From the NCBI GenBank assembly GCA_002730475.1, contig PCAG01000034.1:1-18894 (forward strand): a DNA stretch of 18,894 nucleotides, written 5' to 3'. Within the stretch, counting starts at the first letter, position 1, and every line of letters starts with the position of its first letter. The notes beneath the pieces were generated by a model, which was not told the DNA's origin, did not search any database, and saw only the letters and a program-made list of their open reading frames with translations. Below are positions 1,457 to 16,558 of the stretch, in pieces. The position numbers and the translations under genes are program-made. Origin of the DNA: Spirochaetales bacterium (GTDB lineage Bacteria; Desulfobacterota_D; UBA1144).

Positions 1457-1485
1457 TTGACAGAGCCGAAAGTAGAATTTATACT
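1457..1485 (+). promoter_or_regulatory. Sigma70-like promoter P1, near-leaderless
   Basis: TTGACA (1457-1462), a 17-base spacer and TATACT (1480-1485). Transcription would start near 1491-1493, only two to four bases before ATG 1495, and there is no Shine-Dalgarno sequence. The spacer carries GAAAGT with AAG at 1470-1472, the same offset as in P2, P3 and P4. It lies just after the FkbM stop codon. Confidence 0.75.
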
Positions 1486-1494
1486 CTTTTTCTT

Positions 1495-2142
1495 ATGAGC
1501 GATTCATTAGCTTTTTTTAAGCCGAACTCAAAATCGACGGGTCATCTTTGCAGCTTCAAATACAGCAAACTTGACAATTCATTCATGGCCGAGCTCGTTA
1601 AGCAGTCAAGCTGGAATGCGCAAACTCACCAAGGCTCCTTTGCTGGCAAAGACCCATCTAAAAAGGTCAGCGTTAAGCTTAGCGAGACTGAAATAGGGCA
1701 AATCCTTGCTTGCATCAAAAAGAACATTGATGTTTGCGGAGGCAAAGCATGGTATCATGCGAGCAAAAACCAGATTACTCGAATCAAGTTCGAGCCTTGG
1801 TTTAAAATGTCAAACGAAGGTGGAACTTGGGTTAAGTCCGGAGGCCAACTTGGATACTCTTTTAAAGTTCAGAAAGAAGATAGAGAGGACTCCTCCAACA
1901 AAAGCAATTTTCAAATCACTTTAGGCTATGGTGAATCAGAGGCTCTATTGTCTTACCTCATGGCGGGCCTTGCGGATTTCAACAGTTCTAGGCTTGAGAA
2001 ATACTCGAAGAAGCAAAAAGAGTGGATTAACAACTCCAAGAAGGCCAAGCCTGCAGAGCCATCGTCAGGAGACGAGTTCGCCGACATTGATAGCGCCTCC
2101 CCTTCTAAAGGAGACGGGTCTATTGAAGTAGAACCATGGTAA
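1495..2142 (+). CDS. Putative ssDNA-binding protein, Whirly-like
   Basis: A 215-residue protein I cannot place firmly. The core (about 58-165) alternates strands and helices: KVSVKLSETEIGQILACI, a charged hairpin, TRIKFEPW, GYSFKVQKE, then NFQITLGYGESEALLSYLM. This order of a strand, an ETEIG-type turn and a C-terminal helix that follows an E-rich loop resembles Whirly-type ssDNA-binding domains. The tail (about 182-215) is low-complexity, acidic (DEFADID, EVEPW) and ends in an aromatic residue, as do phage and bacterial SSB tails that recruit partners. It is first in its operon behind promoter P1, and its stop overlaps the glycosyltransferase start. An ssDNA-binding role is an inference from fold pattern and tail. 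Confidence 0.45.
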   Translation: MSDSLAFFKPNSKSTGHLCSFKYSKLDNSFMAELVKQSSWNAQTHQGSFAGKDPSKKVSVKLSETEIGQILACIKKNIDVCGGKAWYHASKNQITRIKFEPWFKMSNEGGTWVKSGGQLGYSFKVQKEDREDSSNKSNFQITLGYGESEALLSYLMAGLADFNSSRLEKYSKKQKEWINNSKKAKPAEPSSGDEFADIDSASPSKGDGSIEVEPW

Positions 2143-4088
2143 AAAAGAAAAAAATATTATTTCATACCGATATGGCGCTTGCCAAGACGGGCTTTGGCAG
2201 AAATGCCAAGGCCCTTCTCACTTATTTATATAAGACAGGCAAGTATGAGCTCGTTAACCTTGCCTGTGGCATTGTCGACAATCCAGATTCGGAAGACTTT
2301 GTTAGAACGCCTTGGAAAACCATTGGGGCGATTACAAGCGACCAATCTAAACTTAACGAAATCAACTCTTCTACGGACCAGAAAAGGGTACGGGATGTTT
2401 CGTATGGCAGCGAATATATAAACGAAGTAGTCAAAAGAGAAAAACCAGACATCTATATTGGGGCGCAAGACTTTTGGGGCGTTGACTTTTCCATTAGGTC
2501 AACTTGGTTTAAAAAGATTCCTTCTGCTATTTGGGTTACTTTAGACTCGCTTCCTATTTTCGAAGCCGCAATTAAAAACGCAAAAGACATAGAAAATTAT
2601 TGGGTTTGGAGCAGCTTCGCCGAGAAAGAACTTCATAGGCTTGGATACGATCACGCGAAAACCGTCCATGGGATAGTTGACGAGACGTTCTTTAAAAAAC
2701 TAGACAATAACGAAAAATCTATACTAAGAGCTAAACATGGTATCGACAGCGACACTTTCCTAACTGGTTTTGTATTTAGAAACCAACTCAGGAAGTCGGT
2801 TCCTAATCTTCTTGAAGGATACAAAAAATTTAGAGAAAAGGTCCCCGAACGTAAAACCGCGCTTCTCCTACATACCAACTATTCCGAAGGATGGGGGATA
2901 CCTAAGTTAATTACAGAATATGAAATAGACGAAAAAGAAATACTCACTACTTACGTTTGCAAAAAATGCGGCGACTATAAAGTAATGCCGTTTCATGGCC
3001 AAGAGATAGGCTGCGTCTACTGTGGGGAAGCTGGTGGATTTAGCACCACTGGCGTAAACCAAGGCGTAACCGAAGTACAGCTTAATGAAGTATATAATTT
3101 AATGGATGTCTACTGCCACCCTTTCACTAGCGGCGGTCAGGAGATACCAATACAAGAGGCTAAGATGACTGAACTAATCACCCTAGTCACTAATTATAGC
3201 TGCGGAGAGGAGTGCTGCGAACATGGAGCCTATTCGCTTCCCTTAGATTGGTCTGAGTATAGAGAGCATGGAACTCAATTTAAGAAGGCCTCAACCTCGC
3301 CCGATTCAATTTGTGATAGATTGATAGAAGTTCTTAATATGCCCGAAGAGGCTAGAGCTTTTTGGGGTGAACAAGCCAGAAAATGGACTTTATCGAAGTT
3401 CTCCAATTCCGTTGTTGGTGGTTTCATTGAGAATTTCATAGACTCACAGCCTCTTCATGATTTTGATTTTATTGAGGCTGAGGTCGACAAAAAAGATCCA
3501 GACGCTTTCGTCCAACCCATAGAGGATGACGCGGAATGGATTAAACAACTATATAAGCTAATCCTTAAGAGAGACGTCGACAAAACCTATGAAGGCCATA
3601 CTTATTGGATGGGGGAACTTTCGAAAGGGTCTCAAAGAGGAGACATCGAAAACTACTTTAGAGAGGTTGCTCGAAGGGAGTTATCCGGCGACATAGATAA
3701 CTCTTACGACATAGAAGAGCATCTGGATGACGACGACAAAGGAAAAAGGATAGCTTTCGTGCTTCCGGGAAATGAGAGAGACGTTCTTTACAGCACAAGC
3801 CTCCTTGAAAGTCTGAAAAAGACCTACCCATCTTACAACATTTATTATATAACAAACAAAGAATATTTTACCATATTGGAGGCCAATGAGAACTTACACA
3901 AAGTTATAGAGTTTAACAAAATAATGGAAACCCAATTTTACCTAGAGGGAAGGGGCGAAGAAGAAGGATACTTTAACATAGCTTTCTTCCCCTACTTCAC
4001 CACTCAGAAGAACATCAATTATACACATAATGGTGAAGACATAATCACCCATGACCTCAAGTGCCTTAAAAACTTCCCAATAAGATAA
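2136..4088 (+). CDS. Multidomain glycosyltransferase, N-terminal part
   Basis: 650 residues with three modules. Residues 1-435 look like a GT-B glycosyltransferase (GT4/GT1 type): an N-terminal ILFHTDMALAKTGFGRNA, then VTLDS, and a nucleotide-sugar site region HPFTSGGQEIPIQEAKMT (328-344) with the paired glutamates E336 and E341. A four-cysteine zinc-ribbon-like insert (C275, C278, C293, C296) interrupts the second Rossmann domain. Residues 465-515 (EWIKQLYKLILKRDV... YWMGEL) resemble DUF4214. Residues 537-650 begin another Rossmann fold (RIAFVLPGNERDVLYSTSLL) like the N-half of GT9 heptosyltransferases, which is then cut by TAA 4086-4088. The next gene continues that fold in the same frame. 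It overlaps the upstream gene by seven bases, so it is probably translationally coupled. Confidence 0.72.
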   Translation: MVKKKKILFHTDMALAKTGFGRNAKALLTYLYKTGKYELVNLACGIVDNPDSEDFVRTPWKTIGAITSDQSKLNEINSSTDQKRVRDVSYGSEYINEVVKREKPDIYIGAQDFWGVDFSIRSTWFKKIPSAIWVTLDSLPIFEAAIKNAKDIENYWVWSSFAEKELHRLGYDHAKTVHGIVDETFFKKLDNNEKSILRAKHGIDSDTFLTGFVFRNQLRKSVPNLLEGYKKFREKVPERKTALLLHTNYSEGWGIPKLITEYEIDEKEILTTYVCKKCGDYKVMPFHGQEIGCVYCGEAGGFSTTGVNQGVTEVQLNEVYNLMDVYCHPFTSGGQEIPIQEAKMTELITLVTNYSCGEECCEHGAYSLPLDWSEYREHGTQFKKASTSPDSICDRLIEVLNMPEEARAFWGEQARKWTLSKFSNSVVGGFIENFIDSQPLHDFDFIEAEVDKKDPDAFVQPIEDDAEWIKQLYKLILKRDVDKTYEGHTYWMGELSKGSQRGDIENYFREVARRELSGDIDNSYDIEEHLDDDDKGKRIAFVLPGNERDVLYSTSLLESLKKTYPSYNIYYITNKEYFTILEANENLHKVIEFNKIMETQFYLEGRGEEEGYFNIAFFPYFTTQKNINYTHNGEDIITHDLKCLKNFPIR

Positions 4089-5279
4089 ATGCATTTAATA
4101 GAAAAGTATAGCCTAGAGACGGGCGTCAAAATAGGTAAGCCAGAGCTTTACGAGAAGTTTTACCCAGTTCCAGTTTCGGGCAAATATATAACTCAGTATG
4201 TCGAACAGGGCATACAGTCCATGCAGTACGAATATTGGGAAGACGTCATTGAGCTAATTAACCCCTATCTCAAGCAGAACGACATAAAGATATTAAACCT
4301 CAACCCCTCCCCAGTTAAATCCTTGGATAATCTTTTCCAAATAGAAGAAAAAATAGACGCAGGCCAATTATCTTATATCTTGAAGAACTCTTTGCTTCAC
4401 TTTGGAGAAACCAGTTTCGCCACTGATGTTGCAGTAATGCATGACATAAACTTGGTGGCTTTGTACTCTATGAGTCATCGAGAATGCTTGGAACCGTATT
4501 GGGGAAACCGGTCAAAACAAATTCTGTTTGAGCCTGAAACTGATTTCCCAGCACGATGCCACAAGCCTTCCTACTCTTCTACGGAAGTCAAAAAGTCCAT
4601 AAACAGCATCGCCTCAGAAAAGATAGCTGGAGGTATTCTTTCCCTGCTTGGGATAGACTACAAGTTTGATTACGAAACTGTTTTTGTTGGGTCTTTGTTT
4701 GTTAATAAACAAGTTGAAGTGATTCCCGAGACTATTGCTGATGTAGACTTTTACCCTATGAGCATTAGAATGGATTACCACTTTAACGAACGTAATTTGG
4801 TTCAGCAGTTTTCAACTACCGACAAACCCATTAATATCATTACGAACAAACCAATTAGCGAAGCCGCGCTTCTGAAAATCAGAAAAAGAATAGAATGTAT
4901 TTACTACCTAATAGAAGACGACGAAAACCCCGCCTTCATAGAAAAAGCTAAAAGGTTTCAAATTCCATTTAAGCTAATGTCTTATATGGAAAAGTCTAAA
5001 ATCCAAGACAAAAAACTTAAATACATGGACTTGGCCCCAATATTTAAGCAGAAGATAGCTGACCCCAAAGAAATCAAAGAACTTAAGAACGAAGACTTAA
5101 GTAATCTTTATTATTTTTCCAACAAAAGAGTTTTAAATAAGGGAAAAATATACTTGAGCAAGGCCGGATACGACGCCGGACAGGCTCATGAATCGAAAGA
5201 TAGCCCTCAGAAAATAGTTGATTCAGAAGACTTTTGGAAGGAGCTAGACTGCTTTAAGATAGTTAGAAAAGTTTCTTGA
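4089..5279 (+). CDS. GT9-like glycosyltransferase, C-terminal part
   Basis: 396 residues beginning with the ATG that directly follows the TAA of the previous gene, in the same frame. The opening MHLIEKYSLETGVKIG reads as the helix that normally follows the first Rossmann half of a GT9 enzyme. Residues 102-138 (LHFGETSFATDVAVMHDINLVALYS...) match the sugar-nucleotide side of GT9, where a glycine-rich turn precedes a helix and a VALYG-like strand. The remaining ~250 residues are not recognisable; they contain ETVFVGSLFVNKQVE and a charged C-terminus. It therefore looks like the second half of a split ~1,047-residue protein rather than an independent gene. Reinitiation at the adjacent ATG is the simplest way to make it. 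Confidence 0.6.
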   Translation: MHLIEKYSLETGVKIGKPELYEKFYPVPVSGKYITQYVEQGIQSMQYEYWEDVIELINPYLKQNDIKILNLNPSPVKSLDNLFQIEEKIDAGQLSYILKNSLLHFGETSFATDVAVMHDINLVALYSMSHRECLEPYWGNRSKQILFEPETDFPARCHKPSYSSTEVKKSINSIASEKIAGGILSLLGIDYKFDYETVFVGSLFVNKQVEVIPETIADVDFYPMSIRMDYHFNERNLVQQFSTTDKPINIITNKPISEAALLKIRKRIECIYYLIEDDENPAFIEKAKRFQIPFKLMSYMEKSKIQDKKLKYMDLAPIFKQKIADPKEIKELKNEDLSNLYYFSNKRVLNKGKIYLSKAGYDAGQAHESKDSPQKIVDSEDFWKELDCFKIVRKVS

Positions 5280-5304
5280 CTATTCTGAAAGCGTTAGTTA
5301 TTCT
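5276..5304 (+). promoter_or_regulatory. Sigma70-like promoter P2, near-leaderless
   Basis: TTGACT (5276-5281), a 17-base spacer and TATTCT (5299-5304). The expected transcription start is about 5311, with the start codon at 5313 and no Shine-Dalgarno sequence. The spacer holds GAAAGC with AAG at 5289-5291, aligned without gaps to P1, P3 and P4. Its -35 box overlaps the last codons and stop of the upstream gene. Confidence 0.72.
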
Positions 5305-5312
5305 ATATTTTC

Positions 5313-6059
5313 ATGGCAGCGAAGAAAAAGTTAATCAAGAAGGAGGCAGTTGGCAATCCAACCGCCAGAGCTAGGAACGAGCTTGGGCTTATTTCGGACG
5401 GCAGCATAGAATACACTTATGACGATAACGGTTTGGTCGATTGGCGTAAGATGGTCAAACAGGAGTTTCTTGTGCCCAACAAGCAAAAGACAAAAGAGAC
5501 TGATATCTCTAATTTAGCAGATAAGGATTTATTGATTTTGTTGGGTGGAATAAAGAACTTGGCCCAAATTAGAGGTTTTTCTAAGGTGGAATACAGAGTC
5601 TATTCTGCCGCCCCAGATTACGTTATGACTTCTTGCGGCATAACTTGGCTGCCTAACTACGAGACAGAGAATAAAGAGGTTTACTTTGAGGCTCTGGCTG
5701 ACGCATCAATGAGCAACACTAAAAGCTTCGCTAGGAACTTTTTGGCTGCCATTGCCGAGAACAGAGCTTTCGTCAGATGCGTTAGAAACTTTTTAAGAAT
5801 CAACGTGGTTGGACAGGACGAGATGGGAGACGCAAGCCTTCTTACTGAGTCTAATAGCGCTTCAACAGCCACTAGCGCGGCAGACCCACATTCTTTGCTT
5901 TCTTCTGTGATGCAAGAAAAAGGTGTGTCTTTCGACGATCTTAAAAAGAAGCTGGTCACCGAGGGGAAAATAAAAGAGTTCGAGTATAAGTCTTTGCAAG
6001 ATATCCCCAAGAGCCAGATCTTCGCTTTAATTAAAAGGCTTAAAACAATTAAAGGGTAA
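5313..6059 (+). CDS. Putative single-strand annealing recombinase
   Basis: 248 residues. I see a Rad52/Sak/Erf-like pattern but no certain family match. The segment KDLLILLGGIKNLAQIRGFSK is followed by RVYSA, a strand-rich part, FEALADASMSN and AIAENRAFVRCVRNFLRINVVGQDE (146-170). The last resembles the 'aETRAvnRALR' helix typical of phage annealing proteins. A linker rich in Ser/Ala/Thr (173-192) leads to a small C-terminal helical domain (205-245), as in many phage recombinases that dock with SSB. It follows promoter P2 directly, heads an operon and mirrors the SSB-like gene behind P1, which supports a recombination role. Alternative: another DNA-metabolism protein. Confidence 0.45.
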   Translation: MAAKKKLIKKEAVGNPTARARNELGLISDGSIEYTYDDNGLVDWRKMVKQEFLVPNKQKTKETDISNLADKDLLILLGGIKNLAQIRGFSKVEYRVYSAAPDYVMTSCGITWLPNYETENKEVYFEALADASMSNTKSFARNFLAAIAENRAFVRCVRNFLRINVVGQDEMGDASLLTESNSASTATSAADPHSLLSSVMQEKGVSFDDLKKKLVTEGKIKEFEYKSLQDIPKSQIFALIKRLKTIKG

Positions 6060-6061
6060 TT

Positions 6062-6829
6062 ATGGAAACCGCAAGCTACTTAGCTACCATAAAAGTCGGA
6101 GACGCTATTGAGCCGACCAGAAAAGCCATTTCTTGTGGCGTTAGTTTTCTTTTTAGGGAAGATGGCTTTGTTTGGACTAGGCTTTTTACCGCCAAGTCTA
6201 GAGGAGAAGCTGTCCAAAGAGCTTCTAATTGGTTTTTCTCCTTAAAATGTAGCAAACACGCCAAAGCAAACATCCCTCACGTAACTGTTAAAGACTTAAC
6301 TGTAGACGACCCGCGCAATGAAGTTTTTTTCTATAAGAGGTTTAGGTGTTTCGATGCAAATAGCAAACTTCTTGAAGACGAAACAATTGAACGACTTCTA
6401 AAAGAGTCGAGAGGGAAGCTCAGGAAGTCCAAGCTAGATAGAAAAAAATTCGCATGTAGATCTTCAGTTGAGTGGAATAGAAATTCAAAACGCCTCTCTT
6501 ATCGTCCCCCATGCTTGGAGTGGACTGGATTTCCTAGGCTTTATTTGGAACCAGATACCGGCGCTTTTATCTACAAATTAAAAAAACAAAGCCAACAAAC
6601 CGTTGGCACCAAATATAGTTTCAGAAAGAGTGTCAATACCACCCCGATGCCACGCAAAGAAGGGGATGGAAGGAGAGTTTGGACCGGCAAGGTGATAGAC
6701 ATAGAAAAAGGCTTTAAAATTCAGGAGCTACGCTATAAGTCTGTCCGACTTAAAGCTAAGAGCCTAGAGGCCGCAAGGAAAGAGATTAGTTTGAAGTGGT
6801 CCGAAACACACTCCGCTGATGATAGCTGA
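6062..6829 (+). CDS. Hypothetical basic protein
   Basis: A 255-residue protein of no family I recognise. It is rich in Lys and Arg, especially 113-240, and contains a short aromatic segment PPCLEWTGFPRLYLEPD. The N-terminal 60 residues look like a small strand-helix unit (SFLFREDGFVWTRLFTAKSRGEAVQRASNWF), and a similar unit recurs at 206-248, ending KAKSLEAARKEISLKW. That suggests an internally repeated fold in which a strand pair is followed by an 'A..A...' helix. It begins three bases after the recombinase-like gene and overlaps the next gene by 11 bases, so it is translated from the same transcript. A nucleic-acid-binding role is possible but unproven. Confidence 0.6.
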   Translation: METASYLATIKVGDAIEPTRKAISCGVSFLFREDGFVWTRLFTAKSRGEAVQRASNWFFSLKCSKHAKANIPHVTVKDLTVDDPRNEVFFYKRFRCFDANSKLLEDETIERLLKESRGKLRKSKLDRKKFACRSSVEWNRNSKRLSYRPPCLEWTGFPRLYLEPDTGAFIYKLKKQSQQTVGTKYSFRKSVNTTPMPRKEGDGRRVWTGKVIDIEKGFKIQELRYKSVRLKAKSLEAARKEISLKWSETHSADDS

Positions 6830-8467: not shown

Positions 8468-8476
8468 ATAATTGAT

Positions 8477-9250: not shown

Positions 9251-9251
9251 C

Positions 9252-9962: not shown

Positions 9963-10274
9963 TATTGTTTCTACCTGTTTAATTATAATAAATGAATTCT
10001 CTATTATTATCCGGTTTACCACCACTGTTTTAGAATAGTTTAATTCGGTATCTATTCTAATACCGTCTTCATTCTCTTGTGGGGTTATTAAATACTCGAC
10101 ATAGTCAAGCAACCCTCTAGGTTTCATAAAATAAAAATAGGCATCCTTCAAGTCTTGTTCGCATTCTATCAGAACATCTAAGCCCAAGTCGCACTTGCTT
10201 ACCATAGTCACATACCTAAACGGTAAGTTTTCGCTTGGGGGTTCTGCCAGTTCAGACTTTATCAGCAAAGGCAT
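9951..10274 (-). CDS. Hypothetical minus-strand protein
   Basis: An unrecognised minus-strand gene converging on the GT34-like gene with a 12-base overlap. From ATG 10274 it encodes 107 residues; the frame stays open to a TTG at 10298, but that codon lies beside the U-tract of the upstream terminator, so ATG 10274 is preferred. The protein is acidic in the middle (CDLGLDVLIECEQDLKDAY) and rich in beta-branched residues at the end (VVVNRIIIENSFIIIKQVE). It fills a gap of some 340 bases otherwise lacking a plus-strand gene, and its composition looks coding. No signal peptide or membrane helix is clear. Confidence 0.55.
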   Translation of the reverse strand: MPLLIKSELAEPPSENLPFRYVTMVSKCDLGLDVLIECEQDLKDAYFYFMKPRGLLDYVEYLITPQENEDGIRIDTELNYSKTVVVNRIIIENSFIIIKQVETISKC

Positions 10275-10296
10275 AGCTAAAATTACACTTTCGAAC

Positions 10297-10341
10297 AAAA
10301 AAAACCCCCACTCGCTAATTTTCTCAACTAACGATGGGGGT
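10297..10341 (-). terminator. Rho-independent terminator (minus strand)
   Basis: Stem of ten pairs between 10304-10314 and 10332-10341 with one bulged base (10311). It includes five consecutive G-C pairs and, on the minus strand, is followed by eight T residues. It lies 20 bases after the stop of the minus-strand exported-protein gene and would end that transcript. Confidence 0.85.
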
Positions 10342-10360
10342 CGACTATGCTACTGCGATA

Positions 10361-10681
10361 CTACTTCCCGCTCTTTACTCCTGCTGCTGAGATATCCAGC
10401 TTCTTTCCCTTGATTCCAAGGGATAGCTCTGGAGATTTAACTCCGAGCTTTAAGAAAGGAAGAGACAAGCTCGCTCCTTTTTCGGAAGAGGCTGAGGCTG
10501 CCACCGAAGTGCCAGCTGCCGCTCCCAATGTTAAACTCGGAATAGGAACAGTCAGCTTTTGTCCAAATAAAACCAGACTAGGCTTGCTTCCGAATTCTGC
10601 ACCAAACCAGCCAGCGTTAGCTTGCCCTGTTGAACAAGCGAAGAAGGCTGCCGTCATCGCTATAATAACTAATTTCTTCAT
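10361..10681 (-). CDS. Small exported protein, possible lipoprotein
   Basis: 106 residues from ATG 10681 on the minus strand. The N-terminus has a textbook export signal: MKKLVIIAMTAAFFACSTG, basic then hydrophobic. Cleavage could be after QANA by signal peptidase I, or before C15 (FFAC) if it is a lipoprotein; the lipobox is not ideal. The mature part is rich in Ala, Ser, Gly, Leu and Lys with repeated short strands (SLTLG, SLSLP, ELSLG), suggesting a small beta-rich surface protein. An AGGTG stands 12 bases before the start. With its own terminator and opposite strand it has the look of an independently expressed accessory gene ('moron'). Function unknown. Confidence 0.72.
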   Translation of the reverse strand: MKKLVIIAMTAAFFACSTGQANAGWFGAEFGSKPSLVLFGQKLTVPIPSLTLGAAAGTSVAASASSEKGASLSLPFLKLGVKSPELSLGIKGKKLDISAAGVKSGK

Positions 10682-10749
10682 AATTAAGACTAACACCTAA
10701 TGTGTCGCCAACTAATTTACACTCATGCTATATCTTTGCAAGTTTTTTC

Positions 10750-10778
10750 TTGCTTTTTTTAAAAGTGGGAAGTAGAAT
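10750..10778 (+). promoter_or_regulatory. Promoter P4, leaderless spacing
   Basis: TTGCTT (10750-10755), a 17-base spacer and TAGAAT (10773-10778). The expected transcript start coincides with the GTG start codon at 10785. The -35 box is weak, but the spacer contains AAAAGT with AAG at 10763-10765, the same offset as P1-P3. Confidence 0.55.
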
Positions 10779-10784
10779 GTTTTT

Positions 10785-11411
10785 GTGGCTGAAATAATAG
10801 GTATATCTGGTTACGCTGGATGCGGGAAAGACTTGTTTTTTAACCTATTTAAAGAGGAGCTTTCTAAAAGAGGAGCTACAGCAGAAAGGGTAGCGATAGC
10901 TGACCCCTTAAAACTTGAAGTTAGAGATACGTTGTTACAACTCAAAGGTATAGATCCAATGAACTGCTCCAGAACCCAAAAAGACGAGATTAGAGACCTC
11001 TTGGTTTTTTATGGTTGTCAAAAAAGAAACGAGACGCATGGCAGATATTGGACAAATAAAGCCTCCAAGACAATCAAAGATTTATCAGATAAATTCGACT
11101 TTATATGCGTGACTGACGTAAGATTTAATAAATTTGTGAGAGATGAAGTTTCTTGGGTAAAGAGTGAATTAGGCGGTAAGTTGTTGGTCATCAAGCAGTT
11201 CCTTTTAAGCTACGATGATCCTTATAAAGTGAAGAAGACTCTTCAAACTGCTCCTAACAGCACAGAAGAATGGAACATGAAAAGGGTTGAAAAAGATTGT
11301 GACTTTATGTTAGAGTGGCCTTTCTCTGAGGATTCTAGCCACATTGAAGAAAATCTCAGGCCAGCAGTCAGGGAATTTGTAAATAGTCATTATGAAAATA
11401 GAAGTAAGTAG
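10785..11411 (+). CDS. Deoxynucleoside monophosphate kinase, T4 gp1-like
   Basis: 208 residues from GTG 10785. The P-loop GISGYAGCGKD (6-16, with K15) opens the protein, as in T4 gene 1 dNMP kinase, which phosphorylates dNMPs to dNDPs for phage DNA synthesis. Further family-like pieces are RVAIADPLKLEVRD (38-51), FYGCQKRN, and the later strand ICVTDVRFNKFVRDEV, which corresponds to the lid/base region of NMP kinases. Length is slightly below T4 gp1 (241 residues). No Shine-Dalgarno sequence is seen; promoter P4 would start the mRNA at the GTG itself. It probably works with the dCMP deaminase at the window's end in dNTP supply. Confidence 0.8.
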   Translation: MAEIIGISGYAGCGKDLFFNLFKEELSKRGATAERVAIADPLKLEVRDTLLQLKGIDPMNCSRTQKDEIRDLLVFYGCQKRNETHGRYWTNKASKTIKDLSDKFDFICVTDVRFNKFVRDEVSWVKSELGGKLLVIKQFLLSYDDPYKVKKTLQTAPNSTEEWNMKRVEKDCDFMLEWPFSEDSSHIEENLRPAVREFVNSHYENRSK

Positions 11412-11655
11412 TATATTCTACGACGCCCTAGAGGCAAAGTACCGCGCAGAGATAGTTGAAGCTATCGCAACATTGGAAGTGTATTTTAAAGTTCCAGTAG
11501 GCATTGGTGAACACTCAGATCTATTAGCGGAGCATAACAAGTGGGTGGAGAAGCTAGCTCAAGCTGAACATAATTTAGCGGCTCTCCACGAGCATTTTCA
11601 ACAGGTACAGCCAGTTGGAGGCAACGAACCAGATTCAAGTAAAAAAGGAGATTAA
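11392..11655 (+). CDS. Hypothetical small helical protein
   Basis: 87 residues overlapping the end of the kinase gene by 20 bases. It is predicted mainly helical from the pattern (YDALEAKYRAEIVEAIATLEVYF and LLAEHNKWVEKLAQAEHNLAALHEHF), with a heptad-like second half that could form a coiled coil and an acidic, disordered tail. No family recognised. Its position suggests co-translation with the kinase. It ends four bases before the next start, and the Shine-Dalgarno for that gene lies inside its last codons. Confidence 0.65.
   Translation: MKIEVSSIFYDALEAKYRAEIVEAIATLEVYFKVPVGIGEHSDLLAEHNKWVEKLAQAEHNLAALHEHFQQVQPVGGNEPDSSKKGD
11645..11650 (+). promoter_or_regulatory. Ribosome binding site AAGGAG
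   Basis: AAGGAG nine bases before ATG 11660. It fixes the start of the repeat protein at 11660 and rules out the upstream in-frame ATG at 11615, which has no such site. Confidence 0.75.
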
Positions 11656-11659
11656 TAAA

Positions 11660-12535
11660 ATGGGTTTATTTAGTTTTTTCAGAAGAGTAAGAATGGGCAA
11701 ATGCCTATCTTGTGAGCACGAAGCCCCAATAAGGGATTTCGGCAAAGAATATAGAGACGAATACGGCACGTCGGTCAAAAGAGGACCTTCGAGATGCACC
11801 GCTAAGACACGCGGCTCGGGAGCGAAAGGTTCAGGGGCGAAAGGTTCAGGGGCGAAGAGTTCAGAGGAAAAAGGCTCCAAGAGAAGCCCTAGAAAAAGCG
11901 TTAAAGGGTGGACTACCTCCAGCAAGGGTTCCTCTAAAGGCTCCAGCAAGGGTTCTTCTAAAGGCTCCAGCAAGGGTTCTTCTAAAGGCTCCAGCAAGGG
12001 TTCTTCTAAAGGCTCTAGTAGGTTTGAGCGAGTTGAGGACAAAGGCTCCAAAGGCTCTTCGAGAAGGAGAACAAACAAAAAAACAAAAACAACAAAAAGC
12101 CAGAAAGGCCCATCTTACGACAAAGGTGCATCTGCACCATCACGAAAAAGGACAGATAGCCGTCATAACCTTGGGTATGAAGAGGGAGCTCCCCCCTCTG
12201 ACAGCCGTCATGATCGTGGATATGAAGAGGGAGCTCCCCCCTCAACCAGAAGCTATGTCGGAAGGACTGTCACAGAAGACGAATTGAAGGTTCTTAGGAA
12301 GGAGAAGGCTATCAGAGATGAGGAGACGCGCATCCTCAGAGAGAAACAGGCCGCAGAAGGTTATAGAGACAAAGGTGCACCTCCGCTATCAGGAGACAAG
12401 GGTTCAGACAGCCGTCATGATCTTGGATATGAAGAGGGAGCCCCGCCACCATCTGGAAACGGTTCAGACAGCCGTCATAATCTTGGATATGAAGAGGGAG
12501 CTCCTCCTAGCGGGACACCGCCGACAGGGGTTTAA
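11660..12535 (+). CDS. Low-complexity repeat protein
   Basis: 291 residues. Residues 1-45 form a small N-terminal unit with three cysteines (GKCLSCEHE and C47). The rest is largely disordered: three GSGAK units, eight SSKG units, a Lys/Arg/Thr-rich stretch, then four copies of a 14-residue motif DSRHxLGYEEGAPP separated by spacers. One short coiled-coil-like segment (TVTEDELKVLRKEKAIRDEETRILREK) sits between copies two and three. The first half is strongly basic, the second contains acidic YEEG blocks, so the two halves could attract each other. No enzyme motif. Possible roles: nucleic-acid binding scaffold, condensate former or adhesive. Terminator hairpins follow immediately. Confidence 0.75.
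   Translation: MGLFSFFRRVRMGKCLSCEHEAPIRDFGKEYRDEYGTSVKRGPSRCTAKTRGSGAKGSGAKGSGAKSSEEKGSKRSPRKSVKGWTTSSKGSSKGSSKGSSKGSSKGSSKGSSKGSSKGSSRFERVEDKGSKGSSRRRTNKKTKTTKSQKGPSYDKGASAPSRKRTDSRHNLGYEEGAPPSDSRHDRGYEEGAPPSTRSYVGRTVTEDELKVLRKEKAIRDEETRILREKQAAEGYRDKGAPPLSGDKGSDSRHDLGYEEGAPPPSGNGSDSRHNLGYEEGAPPSGTPPTGV
11813..11857 (+). repeat. Three 15-base tandem repeats (GSGAK)
   Basis: Three adjacent 15-base units at 11813, 11828 and 11843, each encoding GSGAK. The second and third are nearly identical (gcgaaa versus gcgaag at the end); the first differs at several third positions. Confidence 0.9.
11918..12013 (+). repeat. Four 24-base tandem repeats (SSKGSSKG)
   Basis: Four head-to-tail 24-base units at 11918, 11942, 11966 and 11990. 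Units two to four are identical; unit one has a single change (tcc for tct). Each unit alternates two spellings of SSKG. Near-identity at silent positions points to recent expansion by slippage or unequal recombination. Confidence 0.92.
12155..12508 (+). repeat. Four dispersed 42-base repeats (DSRHxLGYEEGAPP)
   Basis: Copies at 12155-12196, 12200-12241, 12407-12448 and 12467-12508. All encode DSRH[ND][LR]GYEEGAPP with few silent differences. Copies three and four are also preceded by the same 'ggttca' (GS). Pairing (1+2, 3+4) suggests duplication of a doublet. Confidence 0.9.
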
Positions 12536-12550
12536 GGGACATATTGTCCC
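12536..12550 (+). promoter_or_regulatory. Hairpin GGGACA-tat-TGTCCC after stop codon
   Basis: A perfect six-pair stem with a three-base loop starting right after the TAA of the repeat protein. Its right arm (12545-12550) could also pair with GGGACA at 12581-12586 in the downstream terminator, which would break that terminator. There is no T-run, so it is not a terminator by itself. Confidence 0.6.
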
Positions 12551-12572
12551 TAGCAGATGCGTTTGCTTTACC

Positions 12573-12609
12573 AGCGTCTTGGGACACAATGTCTCAAGGC
12601 GCTTTTTTT
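12573..12609 (+). terminator. Rho-independent terminator
   Basis: A 14-pair stem (12573-12586 with 12590-12603, two G-U pairs) closing a three-base CAA loop and followed by a run of seven Ts. It ends the kinase/repeat-protein operon and isolates hsp20. Confidence 0.88.
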
Positions 12610-12646
12610 ATTAGTAAAAATGCATGTTTTTAGTTGGCATGACTTT

Positions 12647-12655
12647 TGCTAGACT
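12647..12655 (+). promoter_or_regulatory. Extended -10 promoter before hsp20
   Basis: TGC-TAGACT forms an extended -10 element with TAGACT at 12650-12655, 14 bases before ATG 12664. This is the same spacing as P2 and P3, so the transcript would again start next to the start codon. A second candidate -10, TATAAG, lies at 12655-12660. No good -35 is visible. A promoter is needed here because a strong terminator lies just upstream. Confidence 0.45.
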
Positions 12656-12663
12656 ATAAGAGT

Positions 12664-13029
12664 ATGTTAAATACATTAGACAGATTAAATAATAGAGGGA
12701 GTAAGATTTATCAAAATCTTCTCGATGAGGTTCTTGACCCGTTTCTTAATGTCTCGGGCTCCAAGGTTTTCGGCTTCGAGGAAAAGGATGACGAATATCT
12801 CGTTAACTTAGAAATGGCAGGAGTAGAAAAAAAACAGTGCAAAGCTGAAGTTAAAGATGGACTCTTAAGAGTGTCCGCTAAGACAGATAGAAGAAGCTTC
12901 GATTATGCAGCTTCTATCCCTAGAGACGCTGCCGCAGCCTCAGCCAAGGCTACGATAAAAAATGGACTATTAACAATAGTGATACCCAAATCAGAAAACG
13001 CAAAAGGCCAATTAATTCAAATTAGTTAA
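12664..13029 (+). CDS. Small heat-shock protein (Hsp20)
   Basis: 121 residues from ATG 12664; an in-frame TTG at 12646 would lie upstream of the predicted transcript start and is less likely. The alpha-crystallin domain spans about 34-108: EKDDEYLVNLEMAGVEKKQCKAEV in pieces, KDGLLRVSAK (64-73), and the closing NGLLTIVIPK (100-109). The C-terminal LIQIS supplies the I-x-I motif used for oligomer assembly. Hsp20 proteins hold unfolding proteins in solution; many T4-like marine phages carry one, presumably to aid folding or assembly during infection. The gene has its own promoter and terminator, so it is a single-gene unit. Confidence 0.9.
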   Translation: MLNTLDRLNNRGSKIYQNLLDEVLDPFLNVSGSKVFGFEEKDDEYLVNLEMAGVEKKQCKAEVKDGLLRVSAKTDRRSFDYAASIPRDAAAASAKATIKNGLLTIVIPKSENAKGQLIQIS

Positions 13030-13051
13030 GGTTTTTGGTCTTTTTCTTGAC

Positions 13052-13085
13052 AGGCATAGCGCTTTTTGTGCTATGCCTTTTCTTT
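13052..13085 (+). terminator. Rho-independent terminator after hsp20
   Basis: An 11-pair stem (13052-13062 with 13068-13078, one G-U pair), a five-T loop and a T-rich tail. It lies 22 bases after the hsp20 stop and separates it from the MscS-like gene. Confidence 0.85.
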
Positions 13086-13094
13086 ATATGGGTG

Positions 13095-13100
13095 TAAACT
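13095..13100 (+). promoter_or_regulatory. Candidate -10 box TAAACT
   Basis: TAAACT stands 14 bases before ATG 13109, the position used by the other leaderless promoters here. No -35 can be assigned because that region is occupied by the terminator stem. Supported mainly by spacing and by the need for a promoter after the terminator. Confidence 0.35.
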
Positions 13101-13108
13101 AAATTGAC

Positions 13109-13435
13109 ATGGAGCAGGAAGCTTTAGAACAAACGGCTCGAGGTTTTCTCGGGGAATATGGTTGGCTTTTGTTGGCCGGTGCAGCAGCAATAATCTTCAA
13201 GGATATAGTTTCTCAGTTTGCAGCTGGATTAACAATATGGTTTAGTAAAGACTACACTCCAGACGATATAGTTTTGATCGGAGGGAGAAAGGCTCGTATA
13301 GTTAGAGTGGGTTTGAAAAATACAACTTTTCATTTTCCAGACACTCACACCAAGAAAACAGTGTCAAATTCAGCCTTTACCCATCTCGATATAGAGAGGC
13401 AGATGAAAGACTGGGATGACGGAGGAAAAAAGTAA
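13109..13435 (+). CDS. Miniature MscS-like membrane protein
   Basis: 108 residues. One hydrophobic helix (about 18-42, GWLLLAGAAAIIF then KDIVSQFAAGLTIWF) is followed by a beta domain: SKDYTPDDIVLIGGRKARIVRVGLKNTTFHF and a segment ending TVSNSAFTH. This order matches the pore-lining TM3 and the adjoining beta domain of MscS channels: KDxxxNxxAGL, then 'pf..GD.V.i.g..G.V..igl..T' and 'iPNs'. Full MscS proteins are near 286 residues with three membrane helices and a C-terminal alpha/beta cage; here only the pore helix and beta ring would remain. It could form a minimal channel or alter host MscS by co-assembly; neither is shown. Confidence 0.65.
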   Translation: MEQEALEQTARGFLGEYGWLLLAGAAAIIFKDIVSQFAAGLTIWFSKDYTPDDIVLIGGRKARIVRVGLKNTTFHFPDTHTKKTVSNSAFTHLDIERQMKDWDDGGKK

Positions 13436-13604
13436 AAAACAAACAGCTTTAAACCTTTTGGATATGATAATTGAAAAAGCGTATTCTGAAGATTTAAATT
13501 TTAAAAAACAAATGGTTAAACAACACAAAGCGTCAAAGGCTGTAGGTGAAAGCTGGATGTGCTTTCATCTCAAAGTTTTGAGAGAGTTGTTAGGAGGAGA
13601 ATAA
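13416..13604 (+). CDS. Hypothetical 62-residue protein
   Basis: Starts inside the end of the MscS-like gene (20-base overlap). Highly charged and probably helical (ALNLLDMIIEKAYSEDLNFKKQM), with a KxxxxVGESWMCFHLKVLRELL segment. No family recognised. The last codons carry the AGGAGG ribosome site of the next gene, showing tight packing. Confidence 0.6.
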   Translation: MTEEKSKKQTALNLLDMIIEKAYSEDLNFKKQMVKQHKASKAVGESWMCFHLKVLRELLGGE

Positions 13605-13608
13605 AATT

Positions 13609-13758
13609 ATGTGGATAACATTGATTATAAGTGTGAGCCTTAATTGCGCTTTGGGCTATTGGATCTTCACCCTTAAGAAGGGTGCCTTTGCAAAAGCGGC
13701 AGCAGAAATAAAAGAAGCTGCGGAAGCAGTTAAGGACATCACAGATGAAACAAAATGA
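13609..13758 (+). CDS. 49-residue single-pass membrane protein
   Basis: A small gene from ATG 13609 with AGGAGG at 13592-13597. The N-terminal half is a clear membrane helix (MWITLIISVSLNCALGYWIF), followed by a charged Ala-rich amphipathic helix (KAAAEIKEAAEAVKDITDE). The likely orientation is N-out with the helical tail in the cytoplasm, given the KK after the membrane segment. The size and shape resemble small phage inner-membrane proteins, but I recognise no family. It overlaps the next gene by 14 bases. Confidence 0.7.
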   Translation: MWITLIISVSLNCALGYWIFTLKKGAFAKAAAEIKEAAEAVKDITDETK

Positions 13759-14080
13759 CGAGCCAAAAGCTGACCCAGTGAGGTTACTCGAAAAAGCCTT
13801 GGAAATCGCTGACAAGACCAAAATCTGTCAAGAGAGCGTTTTATGGCTTGAAAGACAAATAGATGCGGTTAGTGAAGATTTCGACGCGTTAAATGCTGGC
13901 GAGTATGATCATTTAGGTTTTTCAGAGAAAGAAGAATTCACCTTAAACCTTACTCGAAGGATGAGGACACTTTACAGCAAGAACAAATTAGAGCAGAAAC
14001 TGCTTGACTCGCTAGAAAGTGAGATGTACTCTGTTGATTTGAAAATTACGGAGATAGACAGTGCCGAAAAAGAAGATTGA
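13745..14080 (+). CDS. Hypothetical helical protein
   Basis: 111 residues, no recognised family. Predicted almost wholly helical and rich in Glu, Lys and Leu: VRLLEKALEIADKTK, QESVLWLERQIDAVSEDFDAL, EFTLNLTRRMRTLYSKNKLEQKLLDSLE. The heptad pattern suggests a coiled coil or a helical bundle. It starts within the preceding membrane-protein gene and overlaps the next (GTG 14061) by 20 bases. Confidence 0.65.
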   Translation: MKQNDEPKADPVRLLEKALEIADKTKICQESVLWLERQIDAVSEDFDALNAGEYDHLGFSEKEEFTLNLTRRMRTLYSKNKLEQKLLDSLESEMYSVDLKITEIDSAEKED

Positions 14081-14228
14081 AGATAAGTTTTACGCGGTAG
14101 TTTCCAAAGATGGAAGCTTCTTGCATGGAGCCTTTCCTTTCACAGAGGAGGGCCTCATAAAAGCTGAAAAATACGCCAGCGAAGTAACCAAAGCAACAAA
14201 AGACAAGACTGAAGTAGTTCTTTCATGA
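14061..14228 (+). CDS. Hypothetical 55-residue protein
   Basis: From GTG 14061 to TGA 14226-14228. It reads MPKKKIEDKFYAVVSK, then DGSFLHGAFPFTEEG, and ends in a helix KAEKYASEVTK followed by TEVVLS. It looks like a compact beta-alpha-beta unit. It fills the gap between two better-supported genes with short overlaps, which supports it; no family recognised. The next ATG begins one base after its stop. Confidence 0.6.
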   Translation: MPKKKIEDKFYAVVSKDGSFLHGAFPFTEEGLIKAEKYASEVTKATKDKTEVVLS

Positions 14229-14229
14229 C

Positions 14230-14424
14230 ATGAATATATCAGAGTTCGAGAGAAACAAACCCGTAAAGACTTACAGAGCGATAAAAAATACGACAAAAAA
14301 ATATAAAAATGTCATTAAAAATATGGAGATGATGGACGACGACGACTGTACTAGGGTTGAAATGGCCAACGATTTCATAAAAGACTTGGAAAAAATAATG
14401 GAAGTTTTTCAATCTGGAGAGTGA
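14230..14424 (+). CDS. Hypothetical 64-residue protein
   Basis: A charged, helical small protein with a basic N-terminal half (KTYRAIKNTTKKYKNVIKN) and an acidic middle (MEMMDDDDC). Its stop overlaps the next start as TGATG. No family recognised; no ribosome site is obvious, so coupling to the upstream gene is likely. Confidence 0.55.
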   Translation: MNISEFERNKPVKTYRAIKNTTKKYKNVIKNMEMMDDDDCTRVEMANDFIKDLEKIMEVFQSGE

Positions 14425-14675
14425 TGGCTAAAGCCACCCTAGTAACCTGCTTCTGCACAATACAGGTTACCAGTGCAAATGAATACGAAGCTCAGAACGA
14501 AGTAGACAAAATGGTAAAAAGGGAATATCCCCTGTCAGATAACGTCACGTTAATAGTAGACGAGATAATACACACGACCACAAATTGTTGTGGCGCAGAA
14601 TACAAAAAAGAAAAAGATGGGAATGTTCGACGAGATAATAGTTCCGAGGTCCTACCTCAGAAACTTGTTAAATAA
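14424..14675 (+). CDS. Hypothetical 83-residue protein
   Basis: Starts at ATG 14424 within TGATG. The first part alternates strands and a helix: TLVTCFCTIQVTSANEYEAQNEVDK, then VTLIVDEIIHTTTNCC. This gives a small alpha/beta fold with a CC pair. The final ~20 residues overlap the next gene by 59 bases and look less structured. No family recognised. Confidence 0.55.
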   Translation: MAKATLVTCFCTIQVTSANEYEAQNEVDKMVKREYPLSDNVTLIVDEIIHTTTNCCGAEYKKEKDGNVRRDNSSEVLPQKLVK

Positions 14676-15225
14676 AGAGGACGAGAGACTCTTCAAAAAA
14701 GACCATGTTTTCCAGACTAAGGATCTGGACAACGTGATGGACCTCTACAAAGTCCACAGACGACAACTCTTTAGGCTCAATCGTTCTGAGATAGCCTTAA
14801 AGGAGGGCGTTCAGCACACCTCATTAGCAGACCAATGGGACAAGGTCAGAGACAATATAGACATAAATTTTCACGATCATCTCAAAGATCGCAAAGGTGA
14901 CGAGTATTCAGTTGAGTTTGAATTCACTTTTAAAAACGGTAAGGTAGATAAGAAGAAACTCATCTCCCTAAACCTTGAAAAGACAAAAGCAGAAAGAGAG
15001 TTAATAGATGAGATGTGGGATATAGAGCAAGAGATTTTCGATGACTTCCGCAGTACATCTTTAAAATATAGGTTTTTCTCTTGGCTTGAGGGTCATCTTA
15101 ATAAAATGACTAATTGGGCGAGAAAAAAACACCGCCTCCCTATCGAATTAAGAAAGATGGCGTATGAAAAGTCTGGAAGGTTAGAAAAAGACCCTAAATC
15201 TTTAAACATTTACATGGACGTATAA
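14617..15225 (+). CDS. Phage protein of the MGMFDEI type
   Basis: 202 residues from ATG 14617; an ATG at 14623 is also possible. The opening MGMFDEIIVPRSYL, the block FQTKDLDNVMDLYKV (about 33-47) and the later EYSVEFEFTFKNGKVDKKKL follow the order seen in a widespread, unnamed family of phage proteins that begin MGMFD and contain FQTKdL. The C-terminal third is helical and charged (WDIEQEIFDDFRS, FFSWLEGHLNKMTNWARKKH). Function of the family is unknown to me. An AAAAAAG tract before the start is a weak ribosome site. Confidence 0.65.
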   Translation: MGMFDEIIVPRSYLRNLLNKEDERLFKKDHVFQTKDLDNVMDLYKVHRRQLFRLNRSEIALKEGVQHTSLADQWDKVRDNIDINFHDHLKDRKGDEYSVEFEFTFKNGKVDKKKLISLNLEKTKAERELIDEMWDIEQEIFDDFRSTSLKYRFFSWLEGHLNKMTNWARKKHRLPIELRKMAYEKSGRLEKDPKSLNIYMDV

Positions 15226-15230
15226 AGACT

Positions 15231-15446
15231 ATGCCAATTAACGTAAACGATAAGGAACTAATAGAATTTTCTAATTTAGTTAATGAGTGTTGTGCCGTTA
15301 TGGATCACGACTATGTAGCGGAATGGCTACAAAAGAAACACCCAGACCTTAATATGGAAAGGCCAATAGATAGGTTCAGATCTGGCGGCTCCAAGTCTGT
15401 CTATCGGCTTTTATATTTTATAGAAAAAGACGAAGCCGACCTATAA
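15231..15446 (+). CDS. Small protein with DUF2384-like domain
   Basis: 71 residues. The C-terminal half (VAEWLQKKHPDLNMERPIDRF, then GGSKSVYRLLYFIEKDE) has the spacing of the MbcA/ParS/Xre antitoxin toxin-binding domain: Trp-Leu, a short loop, 'P-hydrophobic-D', then 'G...V...L..IE'. The N-terminal half is helical and too short for a full helix-turn-helix. No toxin of the RES type is seen next to it. It might act as an anti-host or regulatory protein; the match is by eye and modest. Confidence 0.5.
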   Translation: MPINVNDKELIEFSNLVNECCAVMDHDYVAEWLQKKHPDLNMERPIDRFRSGGSKSVYRLLYFIEKDEADL

Positions 15447-15447
15447 T
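15442..15447 (+). promoter_or_regulatory. Candidate -10 box TATAAT
   Basis: A perfect TATAAT 12 bases before ATG 15454, overlapping the stop codon of the upstream gene. No -35 is recognisable and TAA plus flanks make this easy to get by chance. It fits the leaderless spacing seen elsewhere here. Confidence 0.3.
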
Positions 15448-15453
15448 GTTGGT

Positions 15454-15690
15454 ATGGCTGTAGATAGTCAATTCGATTTTAAAATAGTTAATGTAGTTCC
15501 CAATCTTGATGGCTCAGCCAGTTACGAATTTGAATATTCGGATGAATTTGCTGATTTCTTCAAAGAAACCACCGGAAAAGAAATAACTGAAGAAAGCTTT
15601 CAGGAGTTTATGACTAACGCTATAAAAGAAAACCTTGAAAAAAAAGGCGCTTCGAATGTCATTCCTATGTCGAAAGTCCTTGACAAGTAA
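15454..15690 (+). CDS. Hypothetical acidic protein
   Basis: 78 residues, no recognised family. A strand-rich start (FDFKIVNVVPNLDGSASYEFEY) is followed by acidic helices (EFADFFKETTGKEITEESF and FMTNAIKENLE). Its length and charge resemble small phage proteins that sit on host enzymes, but nothing specific supports that. Promoter P3 for the next gene overlaps its last codons. Confidence 0.55.
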   Translation: MAVDSQFDFKIVNVVPNLDGSASYEFEYSDEFADFFKETTGKEITEESFQEFMTNAIKENLEKKGASNVIPMSKVLDK

Positions 15691-15708
15691 GCAAGCGTTG
15701 ACTACTCT
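15680..15708 (+). promoter_or_regulatory. Sigma70-like promoter P3, near-leaderless
   Basis: TTGACA (15680-15685), a 17-base spacer and TACTCT (15703-15708). The expected transcript start is about 15715, with ATG at 15717 and no Shine-Dalgarno sequence. The spacer has GCAAGC with AAG at 15693-15695, aligned with P1, P2 and P4. The 'GCGTT' that follows is shared with P2. Confidence 0.7.
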
Positions 15709-15716
15709 ATTTTCCG

Positions 15717-16040
15717 ATGTCTATTGTTAAGTGCGTTTTTAAGATCAGATATAACGATTCCGACACCAACAGGGTTGACCGTTTGGTCAGTCTTTGTAAG
15801 GGGGATAGGAAATTTCTAAAAGAATACAGAGTCAGAGCCGATGGAAGAATATCTTCTATTGACATAAAATTTAAAAAGTCCGAAACTCTGATCAAGTACA
15901 ACAGGGGTTGGATAAACTCAATGGTTTCCAGCGATGGAGTCTTCCTCCCTGACAGAGCTATTAATCAAATCAGAGAAGCTATCGCTAAAGCCGAAGTAGT
16001 ACTTAGTAAAAAACGCAAAAGGAAAACAACTAATGAATAG
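15717..16040 (+). CDS. Hypothetical basic protein
   Basis: 107 residues, first gene behind promoter P3. Mixed strands and helices: VKCVFKIRYNDSD, YRVRADGRISSIDIKFKKSE, then a long helix RAINQIREAIAKAEVVLSKK and a lysine/arginine tail (KKRKRKTTNE). The tail suggests nucleic-acid contact. No family recognised. It overlaps the next gene by eight bases. Confidence 0.6.
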   Translation: MSIVKCVFKIRYNDSDTNRVDRLVSLCKGDRKFLKEYRVRADGRISSIDIKFKKSETLIKYNRGWINSMVSSDGVFLPDRAINQIREAIAKAEVVLSKKRKRKTTNE

Positions 16041-16551: not shown

Positions 16552-16558
16552 TTTTATT

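Follow-up and report, generated by a model that had tools for sequence, protein, structure and literature searches.

The stretch of DNA analysed here (the window; 18,894 nucleotides (nt), contig PCAG01000034.1 of assembly GCA_002730475.1, deposited as a Spirochaetales bacterium) raises the question of whether a shared promoter places the transcript start of several genes at, or just before, the start codon. An earlier note on the window had aligned four such promoters and had read them as a dedicated class for leaderless messenger RNAs (mRNAs), perhaps with a factor that reads the spacer. The window was compared with its nearest relative, an 84-kb IMG/VR contig taken for an uncultured phage (G001; pieces L001 and L013-L017), and with loci of the wider family. 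We consider it probable that the window carries σ70-type phage promoters built of three blocks, mostly lying 6-9 nt before the start codon, which would give near-leaderless mRNAs and whose spacer element would be read by a factor or act through DNA shape.

Promoter sites and their distance from the start codon

The four sites reported first align without gaps (-35 box, five bases, a six-base block with the element, six bases, -10 box), and the AAG of the middle block lies at a constant offset, as had been described. Their -10 boxes begin 15, 14, 12 and 14 nt before the start codon, within the claimed 12-15. All four were borne out, but the list had missed a fifth copy at 14004. In the following list, gaps are counted from the end of the -10 box.

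1457..1485, + strand: promoter 1, TTGACA-GAGCC-GAAAGT-AGAATT-TATACT; -35 at 1457-1462, GAAAG at 1468-1472, -10 at 1480-1485; gene 1495-2142 begins 9 nt on; G001 counterpart at L016:7692
5276..5304, + strand: promoter 2, TTGACT-ATTCT-GAAAGC-GTTAGT-TATTCT; -35 at 5276-5281, GAAAG at 5287-5291, -10 at 5299-5304; gene 5313-6059 begins 8 nt on
10750..10778, + strand: promoter 3, TTGCTT-TTTTT-AAAAGT-GGGAAG-TAGAAT; weak -35, AAAAG at 10761-10765, -10 at 10773-10778; GTG of gene 10785-11411 6 nt on; G001 counterpart at place 75794
15680..15708, + strand: promoter 4, TTGACA-AGTAA-GCAAGC-GTTGAC-TACTCT; GCAAG at 15691-15695, -10 at 15703-15708; gene 15717-16040 begins 8 nt on; G001 counterpart at L017:237 (TTGACT..GAAAG..TAACCT, 14-nt gap)
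14004..14032, + strand: promoter 5, TTGACT, GAAAG at 14015-14019, -10 TACTCT at 14027-14032; within gene 13745-14080

All four of the sites reported first have a G001 counterpart before the orthologous gene, with gaps of 9, 8, 6 and 8 nt in the window and 11, 6, 6 and 14 nt in G001. The -35 box of promoter 3 is overlapped by a terminator-like hairpin (10738-10753). Promoter 5 is of another kind: the GTG at 14061 lies 28 nt past its -10 box and is preceded by a Shine-Dalgarno (SD) sequence, GGAG at 14050-14053, which would leave a leader of about 22 nt. Its three blocks and their spacing are kept in G001 (L016:18529), but the region is coding, so that this conservation may in part be that of the protein.

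The shared promoter family claimed in the earlier note is real. The pattern TTG-N10-AAG-N7-TANNNT occurs five times in the window, compared with a mean expectation of 0.39 and a maximum of two, and none of 200 shuffles reached five; in G001 there are 11 copies, compared with a single match to the backward pattern used as a control. Although the pattern requires only TTG, the -35 box reads TTGAC in four of the five window copies and ten of the 11 in G001. The family was to be abandoned if the motif proved as frequent inside genes as before starts. With this pattern, nine of the 11 G001 copies and four of the five window copies stand 6-14 nt before a start codon, and the claim passed. The two other G001 copies are the 14004 orthologue, at 28 nt, and one about 126 nt before the ribonucleotide reductase gene. 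The latter (L014:17412-17565) has the same type of promoter in a CAAAG form and a leader of about 120 nt, for which a search for a riboswitch gave no Rfam match up to E 1.

Placement relative to the start codon was then counted over the family, for which 101 loci were reduced to 77 by shared 31-mers and to 72 once the five G001 pieces were set aside; the 72 include several pieces of records G002 and G003. TTGAC-N17-TANNNT occurs 208 times in these loci, versus 56-109 times at other spacings. An ATG or GTG follows 4-10 nt past the -10 box at 148 of the 208 sites, whereas reversed sequence gave 0 of 96. The gap among the 148 peaks at 6 nt (90 sites), with 22 sites at 7 nt and 26 at 8 nt, so that 138 of the 148 fall at 6-8 nt. 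With such a -10 box, transcription should start at or a few bases before the start codon, as the earlier note had proposed. When spacers of 16-18 base pairs (bp) are taken together, 197 family sites are followed by a start within 80 nt, and in 158 of them the distance is 4-10 nt. In phages T5 and T4, of which the first 50 kb each served as a control, only six starts came within 80 nt, at 2, 5, 31, 33, 37 and 53 nt. The pattern TTGAC-N18-TANNNT-N4-9-ATG had 121 matches in 17 records, compared with ten for its backward form.

The orthologues of gene 5313 give a closer view. Their 87 loci yielded 59 distinct promoters and 24 repeats, and four gave no result (L004, L005, L006 and L092; L004 has a promoter in another scan). 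The gap is 6 nt in 42 of the 59, a figure that leans towards the pattern, since the in-frame start with the best promoter was chosen. In 37 of the 59, the promoter-proximal start is the sole in-frame start upstream of the matched region; thus, these mRNAs would be practically leader-free if the promoters are used.

SD-like four-base words at -16 to -4 were found before 4 of 159 genes of the class (all start-proximal sites, window and G001 included), compared with 156 of 674 operon-internal and 88 of 337 other genes; all were called as the longest open frame, so that the figures for the other genes may be too low. The lack of SD sequences before genes of the class was therefore described correctly, but the contrast drawn with operon-internal genes is not peculiar to it, because many internal genes of the window lack an SD sequence as well and only the 156 of 674 in the family have an SD-like word. 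Likewise, the term dedicated leaderless class is too strong for the lineage of the window, since the same promoter drives leadered genes, namely the one behind 14004, with its SD sequence, and ribonucleotide reductase in G001.

The middle block and its possible readers

For the spacer, sites in the window and G001 were picked on TTGAC, a 17-bp spacer, TANNNT and a nearby start, with the spacer letters ignored. All 11 sites obtained in this way (eight of eight in G001 alone) carry AAG at spacer positions 8-10, so that position 10 is G throughout, and nine of them have G at position 6 as well; none of 5000 shuffles reached the observed spacer score, also with the window left out. Conversely, TTGAC-N7-AAAG has 13 copies in about 103 kb, and TANNNT follows at a spacer of 17 in all 13. 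GAAAG occupies spacer positions 6-10, which corresponds to -24 to -20 if the -10 hexamer is -12 to -7.

In other lineages the letters change. Among the 72 loci, 117 distinct spacers from start-proximal sites have A at positions 8, 9 and 10 with frequencies of 0.62, 0.61 and 0.87, while 50 distinct controls, with no start close by, give 0.30, 0.34 and 0.36; the shared descent of a few genes has a part in these figures. A record-by-record test covered 11 records and 99 of the 121 matches (left out were G017, with 13 matches, and G019, with four, both close to G014; the two of G009, which are the same sites as in G011; the only match of G004; and two in G018 that overlap). G006 has the consensus AGAA at positions 8-11, exact in three of five sites (0 of 2000 shuffles), and G011 has ATAA at 8-11 in six of six (1 of 2000). 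The remaining values were 3 of 2000 in G015, 15 in G013, 36 in G021 and 55 in G002, while no element was seen in G003, G014, G016 and G020 (582-849 of 2000); hence three or fewer shuffles were found only for G001, G006, G011 and G015. In G005, spacers are of 16 bp (13 sites, versus 1-5 at other spacings), and an A-tract at positions 7-11 is unbroken in 10 of 11 sites (0 of 5000 shuffles). This set comprises the sites with TTGAC and a 16-bp spacer; one left out for its weaker -35 box, L148:9030 (TTGAAA, 16 bp), has no A-tract. TTGAC-N7-AAAAA has 12 copies in G005, ten of them with TANNNT at 16 bp. GAAAG is thus a lineage-specific form, and some other lineages carry other A-rich elements at about the same place; we read the A-rich spacer centre as one family feature that some lineages have sharpened into a sequence of their own.

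GAAAG as a general phage motif was considered and dropped. The form GAAAGCG placed 4-11 nt before an ATG was found in 15 stretches of the viral_contigs collection, two of them from G001; only one stretch, in L028 (one of these two), has a tblastn match to a window protein, and several others share one site distant from a usable start. Among the rest, L031:7526-7561 and L032:9792-9832 have TTGACC-CGGAA-GAAAGCG in common, with TANNNT at 17 bp, which could be a use of the same element elsewhere.

Candidate readers include σ factors of the phages themselves. Among 12 records searched, seven have a match to σ70 region 2 (three matches in G005, two in G011), seven to region 4 and ten to either. A small σ-like protein of 199-214 amino acids (aa) is related across nine records including G001 (L015:1599-2207; L125, L126, L128, L131-L135). 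The G001 copy stays below the Pfam cut-off for regions 2 and 4 but matches phrog_1740 (RNA polymerase sigma factor) at E 1.2e-7; by sequence, no solved structure of note resembles it (one unrelated match, E 0.83). Its gene ends beside a promoter of the class, or overlaps one with its end, in G001, G003, G014 and G017. G011 and G005 also encode large σ proteins (L121:299-1177 and L123:188-1141; 293-318 aa, with regions 2 and 4), and the gene in G011 has its own start-proximal TTGAC promoter (L144:7014, 9-nt gap). Both large proteins contain VTRERIRQIE where the small one has ISTQTAINLH, a correspondence judged by eye, as hhalign joined only 59 columns of region 2. The helix that reads the -35 box is therefore probably different in the small σ.

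The small σ may have a different target. Upstream of orthologues of a 527-aa G001 protein, which has no Pfam or PHROG match, a TGTAATAA box and a leader with an SD sequence are found in G014, G015 and G016, and a similar layout in G001 and G018; TTGAC is absent from this box region (L013:4889-4948, L136-L139). We take the region of this gene to be late, from its place among very long genes. The TGTAATAA-like box may thus mark a second class of promoters, with the small σ as a candidate reader. A search for this late box as a general class was not successful, because TGTAATA..GGAG..ATG gave only five matches in 13 records (0 control matches), and thus the box rests on one gene family.

How, then, would the promoters work? 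In the reading that we consider probable, they are of the σ70 type and consist of TTGAC at -35, the element at about -24 to -20 (GAAAG here) and TANNNT at 17 bp. The likeliest polymerase is that of the host with its primary σ, since the -35 box, the spacing and the -10 box are of the primary-σ type. The first transcribed base would be that of the start codon or lie a few bases away from it, which would give the ribosome an mRNA with no leader or almost none, and the genes served would include those for the Pol III PHP subunit, the DnaB helicase, a RecA operon and a deoxynucleoside monophosphate kinase, together with many of unassigned function. The spacer element is probably read by a lineage-specific factor acting with the polymerase, or acts via local DNA shape. 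A spacer-reading factor, as the earlier note had supposed, is possible.

What occupies the middle block divides the alternatives. It could quite possibly be bound by a sequence-specific activator or repressor, encoded by phage or host, that sits between the -35 and -10 boxes and evolves together with its target, which would give every phage lineage letters of its own. AAG at 8-10 in all 11 window and G001 sites, as well as other letters in about the same register in G006, G011 and G005, would fit such a protein, and so would a published open-complex structure, which has no polymerase contacts with the DNA from -29 to -18 (PMC4593229). Against it, no protein of this kind came to light, the element spans only about 5 bp and is non-palindromic, and the shuffle test singles out only four of 11 records, with nothing in G003, G014, G016 and G020. 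Alternatively, and with some doubt, the A-rich centre may work through DNA shape (a stiff A-tract, or a minor groove narrowed around -22), which would help σ regions 2 and 4 to reach both boxes with no dedicated reader. What is common to the whole family is A at 8-10, and G005 pairs its A-tract with a 16-bp spacer; spacer composition alters promoter strength (PMC8695583), and a role of phased A-tracts in promoters of bacteria and phages has been under discussion (PMC9825172). Pure shape would not demand that all 11 sites of the window and G001 have G at position 10, nor that nine of them have it at position 6. The constant G at 10 argues for base reading in the lineage of the window and G001, whereas the A-tract argues for a shape effect in that of G005. 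More speculatively, each lineage may have a different factor for reading the middle block, in a part of the spacer that the polymerase is not known to touch, site and reader having co-evolved (GAAAG, AGAA, ATAA, A-tract). If this is true, each lineage would have its own switch for a gene set that includes replication genes.

That the phage's own small σ70-family factor, and not the primary σ of the host, reads the promoters is unlikely. Its occurrence in nine records including G001 and the position of its gene end at class promoters in four of them speak for it, but TTGAC-17-TANNNT is the primary-σ consensus, the putative -35 helix differs from that of the large σ proteins in the alignment made by eye, and the TGTAATAA-like box before another gene may be its target. 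Least of all do we expect ordinary σ70 promoters lying near starts by chance, with an overfitted alignment; only four sites had been given at first and phage genomes are compact, but independent sequence shows the same spacing, gap peak and spacer element again, at levels above the controls, which makes this explanation very improbable.

Several points weigh against near-leaderless promoters of three blocks. Three of the 16 AAG-pattern copies in the window and G001 have clear leaders (14004, its G001 orthologue and ribonucleotide reductase), and the gaps over 11 sites span 6-14 nt, which is looser than in the family, so that several mRNAs may carry a few leader bases. The T5 and T4 control is small, and one of its six starts lies within the leaderless range. 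A spacing of 14 also gave 26 start-proximal sites, probably as overlapping TAnnnT readings of the same promoters. Just four orthologue groups (62, 48, 19 and 11 sites) account for 140 of the 159, which means far fewer independent cases and A-rich spacer figures that partly reflect shared descent. In L031 and L032, which may be unrelated to the family, an ATG follows a GAAAGCG-type site at 4 and 9 nt. Finally, the host primary σ as reader, the transcription start and leaderless translation are all deduced from the sequence of uncultured phages.

Genes behind the promoters and their surroundings

The genes of the window that the five promoters would serve are listed below.

1495..2142, + strand: gene behind promoter 1; 215 aa, no Pfam or PHROG match
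5313..6059, + strand: gene behind promoter 2; 248 aa, conserved phage protein, no Pfam or PHROG match
10785..11411, + strand: gene behind promoter 3; 208 aa, deoxynucleoside monophosphate kinase-like (phrog_139, E 1e-14)
14061..14228, + strand: probable target gene of promoter 5; 55 aa, preceded by a Shine-Dalgarno sequence
15717..16040, + strand: gene behind promoter 4; 107 aa, function unassigned

The protein of 1495..2142 has an acidic C-terminal tip, which we take to resemble that of SSB proteins; its orthologue group has 48 start-proximal TTGAC promoters in the 77 loci and the window. The 159 start-proximal sites fall into 20 groups by downstream protein. The largest, none with an assigned function, are the orthologues of 5313 (62), those of 1495 (48) and a 92-aa protein (19), next comes the Pol III PHP subunit with 11, and the remaining 16 groups are small. 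Most promoter sites precede genes without an assigned function, and those that are assigned belong to replication and nucleotide metabolism: the PHP subunit, the DnaB helicase, a RecA-containing operon and the deoxynucleoside monophosphate kinase-like protein. The family searches covered only part of the 20 groups, and a strict tie to replication is thus not shown.

Besides the kinase-like protein, Pfam and PHROG matches in the window identify Hsp20, an MscS-like domain and UDP-galactopyranose mutase, and there is one tRNA-Arg gene. The window genes from 1495 to 16810 are matched in G001 in the same order, with the exception of 7613, 8477 and 9252, which have no match. G001 itself encodes Pol III alpha and PHP subunits, a DnaB helicase, a UvsX/RecA protein and ribonucleotide reductase. 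The Hsp20 gene (12664-13029) is whole in the window, whereas its G001 match comprises only the last 41 residues (L001:15873-15995). Strong terminator-like hairpins stand on either side of it, at 12573-12603 and 13052-13078. Gene 11660-12535 has long Lys-Gly-Ser repeat runs, and only its first 47 residues are matched in G001.

Relatives of protein 5313 are encoded by 12 virus contigs; a profile search gave 433 relatives, of which the best 80 were kept, and 1635 homologues were found at E <= 0.001. Proteins P0002-P0008 are related to it at 78-93%. The phages collection contains no DNA similar to window positions 5000-12600 and no relative of this protein, and further protein searches for close relatives returned nothing, or G001 alone. 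The search for a host found no relatives of protein 5313 in genome_contigs, and for UDP-galactopyranose mutase one distant match (33%) in a Bacteroides metagenome-assembled genome, which is not informative.

The earlier note had also named weaker candidates with the same distance of 12-15 nt from the beginning of the -10 box to the start. The distance holds for 13095, before the MscS-like gene, and for 15442, before gene 15454, but it is 9 nt before hsp20 (12655) and 8 nt before 18126 (18118), and by inspection none of the four has TTGAC or the AAG element. At 13093-13109, 8 nt before the MscS-like gene, stands TGTAAACT, which is identical in G001 and has neither TTGAC nor AAG; it is closer in look to the TGTAATAA-like box than to the TTGAC class. 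The TATAAT at 15442 lies 6 nt before gene 15454, overlaps the stop codon of the preceding gene and has no recognisable -35 box; at this place G001 likewise has TATAAT 6 nt before an ATG. In AT-rich relatives (G014:118279, G015:24924, G017:59504, G020:72613 and G021:1553), a palindrome-like CAGTATA..ACTG overlaps the -10 box of one promoter and looks like a repressor site.

Comparison with known systems

Measured against known promoter classes, the spacing is that of σ70 (17 ± 1 bp), with the family peak at 17 bp and 16 bp in G005. The geometry would be that of leaderless genes, apart from 14004 with its 28 nt, and SD sequences are nearly absent from the class. An extended -10 box (TGN-TANNNT) is not characteristic, as TG is found at spacer positions 15-16 in two of the 11 window and G001 sites and at neither 1457 nor 5276. 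T4-type middle promoters have a MotA box, TGCTTtA, in place of the -35 box (PMC9004378), whereas here TTGAC is the rule; TTGCTTT at 10750 resembles a MotA box, and its G001 counterpart reads TTGCTAT. Like the Z-element, which lies at -17/-18 and is contacted by the β' zipper (PMC5101437), the middle block would be spacer DNA that influences promoter recognition, but at -24 to -20 it is not of this class by position.

In T4, a phage σ (gp55) reads late promoters through a late box that resembles a -10 box. A plan of this kind would suit the TGTAATAA-like box, but it rests on one gene family here, and the small σ is likened to gp55 by plan only. Leaderless transcripts have reportedly been found in the Thermus phages φYS40 and P23-45, in φYS40 for genes of the middle and late classes; in the family studied here, a gene presumed to be late has an SD-containing leader. 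λ cI is also named as leaderless (PMC9031893), and a paper on phage AR9 calls phage transcripts 'often leaderless' (PMC5312081). The mRNAs proposed here would likewise be phage mRNAs without a leader, but unlike those of λ cI, φYS40 and P23-45 they would come from a recurrent promoter with a mid-spacer element, spread over many uncultured phages.

The closest geometry is that of the TA-led, leaderless genes of Actinobacteria and Deinococcus-Thermus, where TANNNT lies about 12 bp upstream of the start and transcription was inferred to begin at the start codon or a few nt from it (PMC3160421). In Deinococcus, 6-7 bp separate the box from the open reading frame, in a pattern based on -10 that a -35 box can enhance (PMC12340547). 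The distance from -10 to start is the same in the phage family, but the TA-led genes are cellular, and the phage pattern, unlike the -10-based one of Deinococcus, includes TTGAC at 17 bp and the mid-spacer element. Leaderless σ70-type genes and leaderless phage transcripts are thus already known, and what is new is the element at -24 to -20; in the open-access literature searched, which leaves most subscription papers outside, neither a conserved element at this position in phage promoters nor this phage family was recognised. The family provides a clear sequence case of a promoter class built for leaderless mRNAs that recurs over many uncultured phages while other genes keep SD sequences. With such a class, a phage could give preference to one group of messages through a shift in the 70S initiation capacity of the cell, and, compared with the systems described in the literature searched, its mid-spacer element points to a different way of promoter reading.

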